Below, piece by piece: positions 43,497-62,788 of a stretch of 64,000 nucleotides of DNA (its first letter is position 1; the number at the start of each line of letters is the position of its first letter). The position numbers were made by a program, and so were the translations under genes. The notes beneath the pieces are model-generated. The model did no database searches. It was not told the DNA's origin and saw nothing but the letters and a program-made list of their open reading frames with translations. This DNA comes from Acinetobacter sp. XS-4 (GTDB lineage Bacteria; Pseudomonadota; Gammaproteobacteria; Pseudomonadales; Moraxellaceae): positions 3,720,001 to 3,784,000 of the forward strand of contig NZ_CP094657.1 of assembly GCF_023920705.1 (NCBI RefSeq). Reading direction: 5' to 3'.

Positions 43497-45725
43497 ATGA
43501 CCATAACGCCAAAGCCTGATTCAGTTGTTTATCGTGTGCGTGTAGCCGTACCTGTGCATCTGTACGACACTTTTGACTATACACTCACCGAAGCACAATA
43601 TGAACGGGCTCACGTAGGCTCACGCGTCGCCATTTCATTTGGACGCCAAAACCTGATTGGCATCATTACTGAAAAAGTAAATCCACATGAGCCATTTACG
43701 GGTAAATTTCAACTTAAAGCCATTTCTGAACTTTTAGATGAAGAACCTATTTTAGATGAACAAGTTTTAAGTTTATTGACATGGTCCGCACAATATTACC
43801 AATTTCCAATTGGTGAGGTCATGCAAACAGCTCTTCCGGCTTTATTGCGTCAGGGTAAACCGATGGATGTTTTATTCCATCTATGGAAAATTACTCCCTG
43901 TGACGATGTCGAAACTCTGCTTAAACGCTCGGTGAAGCAACAAGATGCTTATCAGATTTTAAAATTACATCCTTCGGGAACAACAGAAAATATTCTGAAT
44001 TTAAGTGGTGTAGAAACTGCAACGCTTAAAGCACTTCAAAAGAAAGGGCTGGTAGACTGTACGCTCGAACCACATGACTTTAGCCCTACACCTGTTCAAT
44101 TGGCACAAATGCCGCTCACGCTAAATGAAGATCAAAAGCAAGCGACTCAACATGTCATTAAAGCCCAGCATCAATACCAAGCATTTTTGCTCGATGGTTT
44201 AACAGGTAGCGGTAAAACAGAAGTTTATTTGCACATCATGCATGAGGTGCTAAAGCAAGGTAAACAAGTACTGGTGTTAGTGCCTGAAATTGGTTTAACC
44301 CCTCAAACTATTTCCCGTTTTAAGTCTCGTTTTAACTGTGATATTGCTTTATTGCACTCTGGCTTAAATGACTCTAAACGCTTGCAAGCATGGCAACAGG
44401 CACAAACCGGAAAAGCGTCTATTATTTTAGGGACACGATCTGCCATCTATACGCCACTGCCACGTTTGGGATTGATCATTTTAGATGAAGAACATGATCT
44501 GTCTTATAAACAGCAAGAAGGTTTCCGTTACCATGCGCGTGATGTCGCACTATACCGCGGTCACTTGCAAAACTGCCCTGTGATTTTAGGATCAGCAACA
44601 CCAAGTATTGATAGTTATTATTTGGTCGAAACTGGCAAATTAACGTCCCTGCAACTCAACAAACGTGCTGGCCATGCACTTTTGCCTAAAATGCATTTGA
44701 TTGACCTTAAAATTGTCAAAAAACAGCATGGAATCAGTCAGCCCCTTATTGAACAAATCAAACATACATTAGCTAGGAAAGAACAGGTTTTAATCTTTTT
44801 AAACCGTCGTGGCTATGCACCTGTACTGGTTTGTGAAAGCTGTGGATGGCAAGCAAATTGTCCACATTGTGATGCACATTTTACTTTGCACACCCAACCT
44901 TATTCTTATCTACATTGCCACCACTGTGGAACCATTCATCGCTTACCCGATCATTGTCCTGAATGTCAGCAAAAAAGCTTAAAAACCTTAGGGGCAGGAA
45001 CCGCTAAGGTCGAAGAACACTTACAAGAACTATTTCCAGAGTATGATGTCATTCGGGTCGATCGTGACAGTACCAGTCGTGTCGGGAGCTGGCAAAAAAT
45101 CTACGACCGTATTCATCAAAACAAACCAACAATTTTGCTCGGCACTCAAATGTTGGCAAAAGGCCATCATTTTCCACATGTCACATTGGTTGCCATTTTA
45201 GATATTGATGCAGGTTTACTCAGCGTAGACATCCGTGCGCCAGAACGTACGGCGCAGCTGATTGTACAAGTCGCTGGTCGTGCAGGTCGTGGTGAACACA
45301 AAGGCCATGTATATTTACAAACATTAAGACCTGACCATCCATTACTCACCACGCTCATCGAAAAAGATTATCGGGCAGTAGCCAAACAGACTCTTGCAGA
45401 ACGTAAAGTTGCTTTGCTGCCGCCTTATCGCTATGCAGTACTAATACGTGCAGAATCCAAAGATCGTGACTATACCTTACAATTTTTAAATGAAGCTGCC
45501 GAGCAACTTCGTCAAGTCGCTGGTGAGATTGTTGATATTTGGGGACCTATTCCAGCGCCGATGGAACGTAAAGCAGGACGCTACCGTGCCCACATGGTGA
45601 TTTTATCTGCTGACCGTGCTCGCCTACACTTTTACTTAAGACAATGGTGGTCTCAATTGGTTCATGCCCCAAGACAGCATCAACTCAGGCTATCAATTGA
45701 TGTCGATCCGCAAGAATTTAATTAG
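43497..45725 (+). CDS. priA: primosomal protein N' (replication restart helicase PriA)
   Basis: 742 residues. N-terminal fork-binding domain, helicase domain with Walker A GLTGSGKTEVYL (near residue 238), DEEH box (near 332) and motif GSATPS. Two zinc sites form the cysteine cluster (CESCGWQANCPHCDAHF...CHHCGTIHRLPDHCPEC, about 455-500). Motif VAGRAGRG is near 592. It reloads the replisome at stalled forks by binding D-loops and working with PriB/DnaT. Divergent from gspF. Confidence 0.96.
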   Translation: MTITPKPDSVVYRVRVAVPVHLYDTFDYTLTEAQYERAHVGSRVAISFGRQNLIGIITEKVNPHEPFTGKFQLKAISELLDEEPILDEQVLSLLTWSAQYYQFPIGEVMQTALPALLRQGKPMDVLFHLWKITPCDDVETLLKRSVKQQDAYQILKLHPSGTTENILNLSGVETATLKALQKKGLVDCTLEPHDFSPTPVQLAQMPLTLNEDQKQATQHVIKAQHQYQAFLLDGLTGSGKTEVYLHIMHEVLKQGKQVLVLVPEIGLTPQTISRFKSRFNCDIALLHSGLNDSKRLQAWQQAQTGKASIILGTRSAIYTPLPRLGLIILDEEHDLSYKQQEGFRYHARDVALYRGHLQNCPVILGSATPSIDSYYLVETGKLTSLQLNKRAGHALLPKMHLIDLKIVKKQHGISQPLIEQIKHTLARKEQVLIFLNRRGYAPVLVCESCGWQANCPHCDAHFTLHTQPYSYLHCHHCGTIHRLPDHCPECQQKSLKTLGAGTAKVEEHLQELFPEYDVIRVDRDSTSRVGSWQKIYDRIHQNKPTILLGTQMLAKGHHFPHVTLVAILDIDAGLLSVDIRAPERTAQLIVQVAGRAGRGEHKGHVYLQTLRPDHPLLTTLIEKDYRAVAKQTLAERKVALLPPYRYAVLIRAESKDRDYTLQFLNEAAEQLRQVAGEIVDIWGPIPAPMERKAGRYRAHMVILSADRARLHFYLRQWWSQLVHAPRQHQLRLSIDVDPQEFN

Positions 45726-56981: not shown

Positions 56982-57175
56982 AAAAAAGCCCTGTAGTCTC
57001 TCCCAAAACTACAAGGCTTAGCGGCTGTAAGTTTCCTCTTTATACACCTACATCATTGTAAGTTCGCAGTCTCTCGACTTAAGCTATTATTATTGTGCGA
57101 TTTTGCCCGACATTCCTTGCCAAGCTCGTTGTGTGTTTATAATCTCAAAAACGTTGGGTGTACTCTAGCAGCAAA
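56982..57175 (-). ncRNA. candidate small RNA or structured recD 3' region
   Basis: On the minus strand a strong terminator (AGCCTTGTAGT/ACTACAGGGCT with loop and T run, 57019-56982) lies about 210 nt past the recD stop. Within the interval, GCTG...TACACC (57172-57152) can pair with GGTGTA...CAGC (57048-57024). A promoter-like TTACAT-N17-TGCTAG lies upstream on the minus strand (about 57191-57163). It could be a separate sRNA or a long 3' UTR; I do not recognise it as 6S, tmRNA or RNase P RNA. Confidence 0.35.
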
Positions 57176-57229
57176 TATCTCGAATCTATGTAAGCTTTTT
57201 CTTACAAGGGTAAAAATATTAAGTTTGCC

Positions 57230-58993
57230 TTAACGAACTAACCGATTAACTTTCTGAACCAAACCACTTTTCCGTGTCGTACGCACTGTAAATGACTGTA
57301 GTAAAGCTTCTGGATGAACCAAAAGACTCACTACTTTTTTAGCGCGTGTAATCGCAGTGTAAATAAGCTCTTGGCTTAATAAATTCTTTGCAGCCTGATC
57401 TAAAACAACGGCAGTATGTGTAAATTCAGAACCTTGTGACTTATGAATCGTTAAAGCGAATGCACTTTGGATACTTTTAGGTAATCGATTTGCAGCTACC
57501 CATTTATTCAAACTTGGAAAATATACTTCAAACTGCTGAGGCTGAGTTCTATGTTCAAAACACAAACCAATGTCACCATTTGAAATACCGAGCTGATAAT
57601 CGTTATAAGTCATCATTACTGGACGACCGACATACCATCCCCCTGCTGTCACTATTGAAAGCTGTTGTTGTATCCAACGCTGCGCATATTGATTTAACTG
57701 CTGCAACCCAAATGGGCCATGACGGACCGCCGTTAAAATACGATAGTCATCAAATGCTTTTACTACATTTTGGACCTGTTCAATTGAGCGTTCTTCTTTT
57801 AAATAATTTTTTAGGCTTTTTATATATCCTTGGAAACCGAGCATGAGCTTCTGATAATAAATTTCGACTTCTGCGTGATTCCCTTCTGGCAAATACTCAA
57901 GCTGAACCACATCTGGCATGTCATTTTGTAAAACTACAGGCTTTAATTCAGAAACCTCAACAATATCAATTTCAAACTGCTGCAAAACCGCTACATGATC
58001 TTGTTGATAGGTTTGTGCTTGAATAAATTTAGCAACCTGCCCAATCAACGCCCCTTCAGCAAAACGGCGACTGGTTTGTAATTGTACTCTGTTGTCAGCC
58101 AACACCTGTATTTGTTGCAAGTCAGCAAGAACTGCTCCGACATCGACGGAAGCGAGCTGATTTGCATCTCCTAATAAAATAATTCGACAAGACTCTGGCA
58201 CCGCTTCAAATAGAAGAGTGGCTAGATTTAAATCCAGCATAGAAGCCTCATCCACAACAATCACGTCATAAGGAAGTTGTTGTTTTTGATTAAACCGCGG
58301 TGTTTGGCTATGTCCCATTCCCAACAAACGATGAATCGTTTGCGTACCCTGATTTCTGAGCTCTTCACTCATTAATCCAGACTCAAGCAGTTTATGGTCG
58401 TTAAATGAGTTTTGTAATGCTTCTTGCATGCGCTGTGCCGCTTTACCCGTTGGAGCAGCCATCGCCACACGAATATGCGGAATTGCTTGGCTCAGCACAG
58501 CAATAATACGTGCAAGCGTATAAGTCTTCCCTGTCCCCGGCCCACCCGTAATAATACTCAGGCTCTGCCGAGCAACCATTTGTAAAGCTGCCTGTTGATG
58601 CGGGTCTGTGAGTAGGTCTAAGTAGTCATCACAAGATACAGGTTGAATTAATTGTTGCTTTAATCGACAAATTTGTTCTGCAAGTCGTTGCTCTAGGTGC
58701 CAATATCGGTATAATGCCAACCCCTGCTCATCGTAGACGCATGGGGCAACATTTGAGGTTGCTTGATCGGCAGATATAGCAAGCTGACCAAGTGCTGCAA
58801 TTTGCTCAGAACTGATATCAATACAGCTATCGCCTTGTAAGCTCGCTTCAATAAGCTGCTGCAAGTAAGAAGTGGCTTCTGGCCCTTGCGATTGCTCAGT
58901 AAATGGAGCCTGATTTAAGAAGTTACTCCACGTTGTTAACCAGCTTAAATCGGCTTGTTCAGAGCTATTTATATTGTCCACACACTTATCCAC
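57230..58993 (-). CDS. recD: exodeoxyribonuclease V subunit alpha (RecD)
   Basis: 587 residues. Helicase SF1 motifs: Walker A GGPGTGKTYTL (near residue 150), VDEASMLDL (near 248), LGDANQLASVD and the C-terminal HKSQGSEF and YTAITRAKK. It is the 5'-3' helicase of RecBCD. The start is GTG at 58993; an in-frame TAG lies directly upstream. The GTG is embedded in the 12-bp DnaA-box-like array. Follows recB with a 96-bp gap. Confidence 0.95.
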   Translation of the reverse strand: MDKCVDNINSSEQADLSWLTTWSNFLNQAPFTEQSQGPEATSYLQQLIEASLQGDSCIDISSEQIAALGQLAISADQATSNVAPCVYDEQGLALYRYWHLEQRLAEQICRLKQQLIQPVSCDDYLDLLTDPHQQAALQMVARQSLSIITGGPGTGKTYTLARIIAVLSQAIPHIRVAMAAPTGKAAQRMQEALQNSFNDHKLLESGLMSEELRNQGTQTIHRLLGMGHSQTPRFNQKQQLPYDVIVVDEASMLDLNLATLLFEAVPESCRIILLGDANQLASVDVGAVLADLQQIQVLADNRVQLQTSRRFAEGALIGQVAKFIQAQTYQQDHVAVLQQFEIDIVEVSELKPVVLQNDMPDVVQLEYLPEGNHAEVEIYYQKLMLGFQGYIKSLKNYLKEERSIEQVQNVVKAFDDYRILTAVRHGPFGLQQLNQYAQRWIQQQLSIVTAGGWYVGRPVMMTYNDYQLGISNGDIGLCFEHRTQPQQFEVYFPSLNKWVAANRLPKSIQSAFALTIHKSQGSEFTHTAVVLDQAAKNLLSQELIYTAITRAKKVVSLLVHPEALLQSFTVRTTRKSGLVQKVNRLVR

Positions 58994-59042
58994 CTAGTTT
59001 TCCACACGCTTGTCCACATGGTTGTAGACAGGTTTATCCACA
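58974..59042 (+). repeat. array of six DnaA-box-like 9-mers at exact 12-bp period
   Basis: On the plus strand: TTGTCCACA (58974), TTATCCACC (58986), TTTTCCACA (58998), TTGTCCACA (59010), TTGTAGACA (59022) and TTATCCACA (59034). The last is a perfect DnaA box (TTATNCACA); four others have one mismatch and the fifth has two. It spans the recB-recD gap and the recD GTG start. Confidence 0.75.
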
Positions 59043-59089
59043 TGCCAAATATTTGTTAATATTGAAATTACATACTTTATCAGCATTTT

Positions 59090-62000
59090 TCATGCAATTT
59101 TATCCTCAGCAAAATACCCTAAAATGGCATCAAGACGTAGAATAAACTCAATGCTAGGTTGCCAGTAATAATACCCCTGCCCAGCTTCACCATTCATGCC
59201 ACGTAAATAAAGATAAGTTGCCCCACCTAAGTGTTGCTCAATCTGATAATCCTGCATTTTGACTTGCAAATACCGATGTAATGCAACGAGATATAAACCT
59301 GCCTGTAGCCAATAACTTGCTAAAGACATACTTTGAGCAATGCTATCGCTACAATAATCTGCAAGATCATCACCTAAATAATTACTTTTATAATCGGCAA
59401 TGTGGTAACGCTGCCCATCAAAATAAACCAAATCGATAGAGCCATTGAGATAACGTGCTGAACGTGCTTCAAGTAATTCAGGCATATTCAAACCATACTC
59501 AGCAAAGAGTTGCTGAATACGTGTCATTGCTAAAACCCGATCTGACAATGCCAAATAAAAAGGAAACTCTGACAAATACTGCTCTTGTTGAAGCTGATTT
59601 AGTCGGAAACCTTGATAAAGCGGTGTTCGCAAAATATCTTTCAACCACTCAGCAACTGACTGGTATAGCAGATTTTCGGCATCTTCTTCCTCTGGGAAGC
59701 TCTCTATATATTTATTAAGTAAATCTTGCCAAAGACTACTATAGTCATTTTTAAAACGACGACGTATTTCACTTACCCAGTCATCTAAACATTGAAAATC
59801 GATATGCTCAAATATTTCATGCAAGAAATTACCGGCAAGCGTTCCTCGAGGAAAATTACTCTTGATCCAGTCAATCGGCTGAGCACTGATTGCTTCAGCA
59901 GTGTTAATTAAGTCCAATTCATCTTCTGCTAATACAACATCATTGCTCTGACTGGCCAATAAATCTGTGCCAGCCTTATGTTTTAAATGCTGTGCCAAAT
60001 AACTGAAACTGGTTTTACCACGTGAATAAAAACGTTGTTCAGGAAATCGTTGTGCTTGTATTTCAATAATACTTGTTTGTTTGGCTAAATGAATTGCCTG
60101 TGGGATTTGCTCCAAAACCATTTCATCTGTACAGCAACGGTGCTGAAAAGGCTCAGTCCTATTTTTCCAAAACGCGAGGCCTGATACTGATTTACCATCA
60201 CTATCTTGTAAAAGTGCATAGACGCGGTGGCTTGCTCGCGTTAAAGAGACATACCAAAGACGATTCTGTTCAGCAAGCGCTCGTTCTTCGTGCTGTTTAA
60301 GTTCAACTTCATTCAAATAAGTCTTATCAGCAATTGCAACTACACGTTGAGTTAAGGTCTGACTTGAGTCTGGTTGGACTACATCTTGGGTCGAAAAATT
60401 GAGAGTTTTGTTGTTTTCTCGAAAGGGCTTATCTGCACTTAATAAGAAAACAATCTTAAATTCCAGTCCTTTTGATTGGTGAATTGTCATGAGCTGAACA
60501 CCAGCTTCACTCGACAATTTACGCTCTAACTCCCAATCACGATCGAGAGGAGAACCTAACTGTTTGAGATACCAATGATAGAGGTTTTGTGCACCTGAGT
60601 ATTTCTCGCTGTGCTGACTCAAAATTTCAGTCAAATGACGCAAGTTCACCACAACCCGTTCATTATCTTTACTTTGGGCAGCGACCAAATTTTGCCATAT
60701 ATCAAACTGGATTAAGCATTGTTGCCATGCAACTAAAAAGCCTTGAGCGGACCACAACTCTCTAATGGTATCAAAACCAGTCATAAACTGGCTTAATCCT
60801 TCGGCTGTCTGCTCAAGCTGCAAGAGTTGTTTTAAATCCATAGCAAATAGACGGCTAATTAAAGCTCGCTTCACTTTTGCCTCATCGTAAGGATGAAGTA
60901 TGGCAGTCAGCAAAGCACCAACGTCTTGCGCAACTGTGCAATCGAAAACACTTCTTTTTGAGGGCCTCTTAACCCGAATTCCTAAACGCTCTAGCTCATA
61001 TTGAACTTTATCAAGTCCATCATGGTTACGGGACAATACCGCAATATCATCTTCGTTTAGAGTTTGAGTCTGAGCATCTTTTTGAAAATATAGCTCTCCA
61101 GCATGTGACTGGTTGAGTAGATCTCGAATCTTCCAAGCAACTTGCTGAGCCTCTGTTTCTTTATCTTTGAGCATGAGCCAGCGTAAAGGATGAGGATTAT
61201 GATTGTTGTGCTCAATCAGTACAGGATGAGGTCGAGTTCCCGCTCGAATTGGGTCATATTGAACCTCTTCACCAAAATCCATTTGTCGTTGAAATAAGGC
61301 ATCAACCACTTCAACCAGATCAGCAACGGAACGATGGTTATGAATTAACTTATATTCACGACCATGTTTGGTTTGAATATCTTTATAGGCATTTAAAAAG
61401 GTGAGCATATCCCCACCACGAAAACCATAAATCGCCTGTTTACGGTCCCCTACCATAATCATGCAACCTTTTTGGTAGCGCTCTGGATGGCGCCAAATGC
61501 TCGCCAGCATGTCGTCTTGATCTTGGTTAGTGTCCTGAAATTCATCAACCAAAATTAAGGGATAACGCGCCTGCACAAACACTGCGAAACGCTGTCCCTG
61601 TTCACCTTTTAAAGCTTCAGAAAGTGTGCGAATTTGCTGAGAAAAAGTAGTTTCACCTTTATTTTGTAAAACCTGCGGCAAACGTTTTTTAACTTCTACA
61701 CACAAATAAGCTTTTAAAAAAATATGAAGCTGGTCGAACTGCTCAGCGTAGTTTTTCAGCACACCAAATAATTGTTGTATCTGCTGAACTGTAGGATGCT
61801 GATAGAATCCATCTGAAATTTCAGCAGGACATTTCTTAAAAACTTTTTGATCAGCAAGTTGACCTAAAAACTTAAAAACAAGTTCACGCTGTGCTGTCAA
61901 AGACCCATCAAAAACTAAAATACTGTCGCTTTGCGTTAGAACTTGCAAAAGCTGCGGTAAACACTCGCTAAATAATTTGTTAAACGCCCCATTACGAAAG

Positions 62001-62788
62001 ATTGTGCCGCTCACATGCTTATAGTGTTCGCCATCAAGCTGGTAATAGTTCTCTAAAAGGCTTAAGTCAATTTCTGTTGCCAACTGTTTGAGCTGAGCAA
62101 GTTGTTCAAACTGAATCGTTGGCTTTTCAGGAAGCTTAAAATGAGCCGAACTAAAATTAAGTGAGTCTTCGACCAGTTTGACAAAACTATCGACACTTTT
62201 AAGTTCACCTGCCAGATATAAGGCATCAATCACAGTCTGAGGTTGAGCCTGTATCCATTCACGCAAAACATCATGAATCAGTTGTCGGCTATAAGTTTTG
62301 GCATCATCGGTAATTTGAGCACGTTCAATTTTGCCACTCTCAAAAGCAAACTCACGTAACAGTTTTTGGCTAAAGCTATCGAGTGTCCCGACAAATAACT
62401 CGTCTAACTGATCGATGACCAGTTTTAAACGTTCACACGCATAGGCAATACGCGTCGCAAAGCTTTTTAAAATATGTTGGAGTAATAAGTCAGGTTCTTG
62501 CTCGGCCTGCGTAAGCAATTCGTGTTCTGTAAAACTGCGCTTGGTCTCTAAGTAACGATACGTTTCGACCAAACGGGCACGAATACGGCTTTTTAACTCA
62601 GCAGCGGCAGCACGGGTAAACGTGGTCGCAATCACTTGTCTAGGCAAATACTTTTCAAGAAAGATACGGACCATCAAACTTGATAAGGTATAGGTTTTTC
62701 CTGTACCTGCCGAAGCCTCAATTAAGTGTAAGCCACTAAATTCAATATCAATAATAGGTTGATAAGACACCTGTACTCTTGAGTTCAT
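59090..62788 (-). CDS. recB: exodeoxyribonuclease V subunit beta (RecB)
   Basis: 1232 residues. N-terminal UvrD-type helicase (Walker A EASAGTGKTYTL at about 25, VDEFQDTNQDQDDM near 415, GDRKQAIYGFRGGD near 448). C-terminal RecB nuclease domain (IADYKSNYLGDD, catalytic Asp and Lys near 1120). It forms the 3'-5' helicase and the nuclease of RecBCD for double-strand-break repair. It starts three bases after the recC stop. Confidence 0.97.
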   Translation of the reverse strand: MNSRVQVSYQPIIDIEFSGLHLIEASAGTGKTYTLSSLMVRIFLEKYLPRQVIATTFTRAAAAELKSRIRARLVETYRYLETKRSFTEHELLTQAEQEPDLLLQHILKSFATRIAYACERLKLVIDQLDELFVGTLDSFSQKLLREFAFESGKIERAQITDDAKTYSRQLIHDVLREWIQAQPQTVIDALYLAGELKSVDSFVKLVEDSLNFSSAHFKLPEKPTIQFEQLAQLKQLATEIDLSLLENYYQLDGEHYKHVSGTIFRNGAFNKLFSECLPQLLQVLTQSDSILVFDGSLTAQRELVFKFLGQLADQKVFKKCPAEISDGFYQHPTVQQIQQLFGVLKNYAEQFDQLHIFLKAYLCVEVKKRLPQVLQNKGETTFSQQIRTLSEALKGEQGQRFAVFVQARYPLILVDEFQDTNQDQDDMLASIWRHPERYQKGCMIMVGDRKQAIYGFRGGDMLTFLNAYKDIQTKHGREYKLIHNHRSVADLVEVVDALFQRQMDFGEEVQYDPIRAGTRPHPVLIEHNNHNPHPLRWLMLKDKETEAQQVAWKIRDLLNQSHAGELYFQKDAQTQTLNEDDIAVLSRNHDGLDKVQYELERLGIRVKRPSKRSVFDCTVAQDVGALLTAILHPYDEAKVKRALISRLFAMDLKQLLQLEQTAEGLSQFMTGFDTIRELWSAQGFLVAWQQCLIQFDIWQNLVAAQSKDNERVVVNLRHLTEILSQHSEKYSGAQNLYHWYLKQLGSPLDRDWELERKLSSEAGVQLMTIHQSKGLEFKIVFLLSADKPFRENNKTLNFSTQDVVQPDSSQTLTQRVVAIADKTYLNEVELKQHEERALAEQNRLWYVSLTRASHRVYALLQDSDGKSVSGLAFWKNRTEPFQHRCCTDEMVLEQIPQAIHLAKQTSIIEIQAQRFPEQRFYSRGKTSFSYLAQHLKHKAGTDLLASQSNDVVLAEDELDLINTAEAISAQPIDWIKSNFPRGTLAGNFLHEIFEHIDFQCLDDWVSEIRRRFKNDYSSLWQDLLNKYIESFPEEEDAENLLYQSVAEWLKDILRTPLYQGFRLNQLQQEQYLSEFPFYLALSDRVLAMTRIQQLFAEYGLNMPELLEARSARYLNGSIDLVYFDGQRYHIADYKSNYLGDDLADYCSDSIAQSMSLASYWLQAGLYLVALHRYLQVKMQDYQIEQHLGGATYLYLRGMNGEAGQGYYYWQPSIEFILRLDAILGYFAEDKIA

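Follow-up and report, generated by a model that had tools for sequence, protein, structure and literature searches.

What reads the six DnaA-box-like 9-mers that lie across the junction of recB and recD in Acinetobacter sp. XS-4, and what are they for? We examined them within a stretch of 64,000 nucleotides (the window; positions 3,720,001-3,784,000 of a genome of 4,171,404 bp), and then across related genomes and at further sites of the same build.

A phased array at the recB-recD junction

The six 9-mers resemble TTATCCACA and occupy 58974-59042 of the window on the plus strand, in a single orientation and with a 12-bp spacing; Tandem Repeats Finder recovered the 12-bp array at the same position. 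Taken in order from 58974 to 59034, their mismatches to TTATNCACA number 1, 1, 1, 1, 2, and 0. An earlier note on this DNA had described six boxes in one orientation with this period and these mismatch counts, as well as a minus-strand TAG at 58994-58996, and all of this was reproduced. At the slot of the weak box at 59022, relatives carry mainly TTATAAACA or TTATAGACA on the plus strand, and at the offset of the possible extra weak box at 59077 other loci have TTATCTACA.

Single DnaA-like boxes with at most one mismatch are not enriched in the window (100 found, 90.6 expected in shuffles), so the signal of the recD array is its phase. Triplets at a 12-bp pitch, with at most two mismatches, number 12 in the whole genome and one in the reversed control; the 12 comprise four in the recD array, four in a second array behind rpe, and four at scattered places. 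By its sequence, the recD array is a DnaA-box cluster outside oriC, with several fitting 9-mers beyond chance. An array-like match at 44858-44914 lies within coding sequence, apparently that of the zinc-binding region of PriA, and was discounted as part of the recD array. By eye, a 24-codon ORF can be traced in another frame of the recD array, a by-product of an array period divisible by three.

A Shine-Dalgarno-like AGGTGG stretch lies 8 nt upstream of GTG 58981, which aligns, by reading, with a GTG that follows GAGGA in relatives. Of the two, GTG 58981 is more likely than GTG 58993 to be the recD start, and the earlier view that GTG 58993 is the only plausible start is on these grounds probably wrong. 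The names recB, rpe, nrdA, and priA are presumed, in part from the first reading of the window or the look of the translations; the identity of dnaA was checked by alignment.

Table 1. Coordinates of the recB-recD junction and of sites with the same pitch elsewhere in the genome. Plain positions refer to the window.
Feature	Sequence	Position	Strand	Remark
recD		57230..58981	-	likely start GTG 58981; listed ORF begins at GTG 58993
Box	TTGTCCACA	58974..58982	+	1 mismatch; contains likely recD start GTG 58981-58979 (minus strand), inferred from relatives
Box	TTATCCACC	58986..58994	+	1 mismatch; overlaps recD Shine-Dalgarno-like AGGTGG (by eye)
Box	TTTTCCACA	58998..59006	+	1 mismatch
Box	TTGTCCACA	59010..59018	+	1 mismatch
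Weak box	TTGTAGACA	59022..59030	+	2 mismatches to TTATNCACA
Anchor box	TTATCCACA	59034..59042	+	perfect; 5'-most unit on recD coding strand
IHF-type motif	TAACAAATATTTG	59046..59058	-	1 mismatch to consensus WATCAANNNNTTR
Possible extra weak box	TTATCAGCA	59077..59085	+	2 mismatches
recB		59090..62788	-	upstream gene; stop codon 47 bases before anchor box
Far-side box	TTATCCTCA	59100..59108	+	same direction as array; in last recB codons (Glu-Asp-Lys)
rpe array		L024:2993-3061 (G000:C1:3473992-3474060)		6 units, directly behind rpe
nrdA-upstream pair	TTATCCACA-nnn-TTATCTATA	L028:2400-2420 (G000:C1:3381899-3381919)		

Conservation of the array in Acinetobacter

Conservation was assessed in a junction set made up of the best 80 of the 95 recD loci found, all named and drawn from Acinetobacter and its family. 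We found three to seven in-phase units at the recB-recD junction in 77 of the 80 loci: three units in 36, five in 10, six in 28, and seven in 3. The three junctions that have no array (L120, L125, and L130) are short or overlapping. A chain score of at least 6 was reached at period 12 in 77 of the 80 junctions and at periods 9, 10, 11, 13, 14, and 15 in none, and the score never exceeded 3 in 3,899 control windows (874 + 3,025). Among the best 80 of 95, the nearest named loci, with 94-96% RecD identity, belong to A. calcoaceticus, A. pittii, A. lactucae, and strain WC-141.

The anchor unit matches TTATNCACA in 72 of the 77 arrays and is a perfect TTATCCACA in 62. With duplicate sequences removed, pairs of arrays with three, five, and six units differ on average, per column, by 0.026, 0.083, and 0.052 in their boxes and by 0.419, 0.469, and 0.264 in their spacers, a comparison that left out the three arrays of seven units. 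The boxes of the array are conserved, and the spacers drift. The coding strand of the short form reads TGTGGATAA-ctt-TGAGGATAA-ctg-TGTGGAAAA; here the middle unit also serves as the ribosome site, and the likely GTG start falls within the final one. Because these two units serve double duty, the anchor is the sole free evidence in the 36 of 77 loci with three units.

The short core pattern is present in 140 of 175 Acinetobacter genomes, with zero in the reversed-control columns; it misses the window's genome and close relatives although the array is present there, in a differing form. Across the order, a strict array pattern matched 13 genomes out of 293, of which two belong to Acinetobacter, and outside this genus such arrays are rare by pattern. 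The recD loci examined from other families (L055-L058) have no array upstream of recD, whether or not recB is the neighbor.

An IHF-type motif and a far-side box

With the loci aligned on the anchor, an IHF-type motif occupies a constant position, from 16 to 4 bases ahead of that box. Relative to the consensus WATCAANNNNTTR, as given in the available part of PMC10380432, the 77 loci show no mismatch in 5 cases, one in 62, two in 9, and four in 1, and the commonest departure is an A in place of the T at position 3. At most one mismatch is thus seen in 67 of 77, against background rates of 0.1% in other parts of the loci and 0.3% when spacers are shuffled. The A. baylyi locus L092, with five units, fits the consensus perfectly. 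Judged as a sequence match, a putative IHF site accompanies the DnaA-like boxes at recD, as is expected of a datA-type locus.

In the window, boxes in one direction flank this motif. Because the loci are related, counts of the far-side box and of the Glu codon beneath it are not independent events: a box with at most one mismatch occurs between -76 and -17 in 49 of the 77 loci and is absent in 28, the mononucleotide-shuffle rate being 2.4%; it sits at -66/-65 in 45 loci, always in the same direction and mostly inside the last recB codons; long-array loci that encode E-D-K/N use GAG, the Glu codon that creates the box, in 36 of 39; short-array loci have GAA at the corresponding position in 9 of 9; and GAG makes up 1,296 of the 3,917 Glu codons across the recB stretches examined. 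At the A. ursingii locus L094, an earlier recB stop leaves the far-side box (66 bases before the anchor) outside the gene, and the box is retained.

Sites of the same pitch at rpe, nrdA, and dnaA

A second 12-bp array of five to six units follows rpe in 12 of 15 same-genus loci, the window's genome included, and precedes a terminator-like hairpin recognized by eye. The rpe array is followed at +22 by an IHF-like motif, with at most one mismatch in 8 of the 12 loci and two mismatches in 2; it is absent in the other 2. By pattern, the rpe array is found in 99 of 175 genomes, of which at least two (G014 and G102) have the match at recD instead; the control gave none. At L155 of genome G008, about 108 bases after the rpe stop, extra sequence parts the stop from the array, and the array is intact.

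Of 21 nrdA loci, 19 carry an upstream pair of boxes at the 12-bp pitch, with fixed boxes and a free spacer. The form TTATCCACA-nnn-TTATCTATA, again with the spacer free, occurs without mismatch in 156 of 175 genomes and in none of the controls, its position relative to nrdA having been checked in the 21 loci. In E. coli, nrdAB is regulated by DnaA, according to the available text of PMC8203912. Two other genera of the family have a 12-bp triple upstream of dnaA, consisting of three perfect boxes in one (G370, L180:1501-1533) and of two perfect boxes with a weaker one between them in the other (G246, L181:154-186), and a single weak box pair at this pitch is present in the oriC region of the genome that contains the window. 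To our knowledge, no protein other than DnaA connects oriC, nrdA, and TTATCCACA. The IHF-type motif at its fixed offset, together with the same 12-bp architecture at rpe, nrdA, and dnaA, makes DnaA the very probable reader of the recD array and suggests that IHF takes part there as a likely partner.

A DnaA-like box was also observed between convergent genes at about 2834-2870 of L025 (G000:C1:2771833), in an arm of an inverted repeat that is probably a terminator.

The distance from recD to dnaA is 326-418 kb in the nine genomes with chromosome-size contigs, or 0.19-0.24 of half the chromosome. The recD site is origin-proximal, as datA is, which is weak evidence; the distances of rpe and nrdA are also conserved, so the position is not diagnostic of datA, and we set it aside as proof.

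Genomes that lack the sites

The recD, rpe, and nrdA patterns are all missing from 13 of 175 genomes, all of them among the 19 without the nrdA pair; absence here means absence by pattern, and G015 and G020 keep degenerate recD arrays. We considered an altered DnaA as the cause. Except in the divergent G165 and G166, domain IV of DnaA is largely unchanged in these 13 genomes, and TTATCCACA boxes lie upstream of dnaA in 11 of the 13, the other two offering 62 (G041) and 0 (G166) upstream bases; this explanation was rejected. Loss of IHF was likewise rejected, since all 23 genomes tested, the 13 pattern-less ones included, have an IhfA that scores above the cut-off of its family. These data imply that the genus can do without the sites at recD, rpe, and nrdA, which tend to vanish together, and shared descent may be part of the reason for their joint absence.

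Function of the recD array

We lean toward reading the recD array as a site of datA-like DnaA control, with a possible throttling effect on recD. The recB-recD spacer would then hold a conserved nucleoprotein site of DnaA and IHF. DnaA would take the strong anchor box and cooperatively fill the weaker same-direction boxes at the 12-bp pitch, and a bend introduced by IHF just upstream would let DnaA on the far-side box, at the end of recB, touch the filament. The most likely job of such a complex would be that of a datA-like sink and/or a platform for ATP hydrolysis by DnaA, replicated soon after initiation, and the rpe array would be its partner in DnaA control. Because the filament would cover the recD start inside an operon that is transcribed, it would, when occupied, probably dampen recD too.

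The same proteins could instead work as a local operon switch, with DnaA and IHF on the array blocking RNA polymerase or hiding the recD start, so that the ratio of RecD to RecBC tracks the state of DnaA and the DnaA pool is affected only incidentally, if at all. We regard this as possible but rather unlikely as the main role. It draws on the fact that the array spans the recD ribosome site and start in nearly all array-bearing loci and is transcribed in the sense direction, on the 12-bp pitch shared by the nrdA promoter region, and on E. coli, in which DnaA near the asnC terminator and IHF at datA hinder transcription, as described in the accessible text of PMC10950094. The recD array itself fits both readings, which are not exclusive of each other. 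What separates them is the rpe array: it is built alike but stands behind its gene and before a hairpin, with no obvious start codon or promoter, and so fits DnaA control better than gene control. For this reason we favor, on balance, DnaA control as the main role of the recD array.

Two further explanations dispense with DnaA. The repeated UGUGGAUAA might be read in the mRNA, for example by CsrA, whose motif is GGA, over the recD start. The recD and rpe arrays are indeed sense-oriented in transcribed DNA and rich in GGA triplets, but GGA is not present in every unit, and the GGA-less slots TGTTTATAA and TGTTGATAA are nonetheless conserved as boxes. The nrdA pair is antisense and far upstream of its gene, the RNA folds no better than shuffles (z 0.30), and a search of Rfam with 57000-61000 gave no match at the gathering score and one match below its gathering score. 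An mRNA element would also leave the IHF-type motif and the arrays upstream of dnaA unexplained, and we consider it improbable. The earlier note had offered, besides its proposal of a DnaA array, that the units are an x-V-D-K tandem repeat expanded in the coding sequence of an ancestral longer RecD. On this view, the codons of the repeat would have drifted. The period is a multiple of three, no stop interrupts the frame across the array in 66 of 77 loci, and the units vary from three to seven, all of which speak for a coding repeat. Against it, the frame is closed by stops at two different slots in the remaining 11 of 77 with the boxes retained, the likely recD start codon lies at the end of the array, and the same layout recurs in noncoding DNA at rpe, at nrdA, and upstream of dnaA. 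A coding origin as the main cause is therefore very improbable. Of the interpretation in the earlier note, the idea of a DnaA array is supported and withstood the refuting condition set there, as the array is kept in relatives with its box sequence conserved where the V-D-K frame is broken; the tandem repeat as main cause is not supported, and the exclusive choice of GTG 58993 is probably wrong. The note's suggestion that the array could titrate DnaA or tie recD to replication is sharpened by the neighboring IHF-type motif and by the sites at rpe and nrdA.

A bolder form of the DnaA-control reading, which we offer tentatively and think rather doubtful in full, would place an Acinetobacter datA inside the recBCD operon. 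There, a DnaA-IHF complex would inactivate or sequester DnaA just after initiation and, through its seat on the recD start, lower RecD, and the recD, rpe, and nrdA sites would form a genus-wide network. Its code would be a strong DnaA box with weak boxes at exactly 12 bp. If this were true, each initiation would be followed by a RecBC-like phase, nuclease-poor and recombination-prone.

Whether a DnaA-inactivating locus of the datA type exists outside the enterics is, as far as we know, an open question. A search of the open-licence literature, in which "datA" also matches "data", returned among the matches listed no DnaA array at recD and no Acinetobacter datA. The recD site is a precise candidate of this type outside the enterics, kept across most of a genus and accompanied by a partner array, and A. 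baylyi ADP1 is a naturally transformable laboratory strain of this genus. The site further suggests that the initiator DnaA is coupled directly and physically to the composition of RecBCD, and its 12-bp architecture suggests a simple sequence rule for finding DnaA filaments.

Comparison with known systems

In E. coli, datA lies 0.47 Mb from oriC and comprises one IHF site and essential boxes in one direction (PMC5742627), through which it makes DnaA hydrolyse ATP (PMC5742627; PMC10950094). So far as the available parts of these two sources describe it, the layout of datA resembles that of the recD site in its single IHF-type site, its strong and weak same-direction boxes, a box beyond the IHF site (as seen at recD in the window and in 49 of the 77 loci), its origin-proximal position (about 0.2 of the replichore), and its being transcribed through. 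The recD site differs in its exact 12-bp tandem pitch and in an IHF motif only 3 bp from the array; it also lies inside recBCD and has a sister array behind rpe, whereas datA lies behind a tRNA operon. A locus of the datA type would further be expected to promote hydrolysis of DnaA-ATP together with IHF and, when deleted, to cause extra initiation.

At E. coli oriC, according to the portion of PMC4451416 available, a strong box recruits DnaA to weak one-direction boxes on a single face of the helix, and IHF draws a distant box toward the DnaA array. The arrays R1-IHF-R5M and R4-C1-I3-C2-C3 described there likewise have a strong box beside same-direction weak boxes and an IHF site between far box and array, and the gap between R4 and C1 is 3 bp. 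The recD array departs from them in having 3-bp gaps throughout, compared with 2 bp within the oriC arrays, and in lying away from the origin. The DnaA-box clusters that restrain initiation in B. subtilis and Streptomyces are also away from oriC, as excerpts of PMC5742627 have it; unlike them, the recD site has an IHF-type motif. The E. coli nrdAB promoter, finally, has DnaA boxes upstream of nrdA (PMC8203912, in the part available), where Acinetobacter has a pair with the pitch of the recD array; at nrdAB the boxes belong to a promoter region, whereas the recD array covers a start codon inside an operon.
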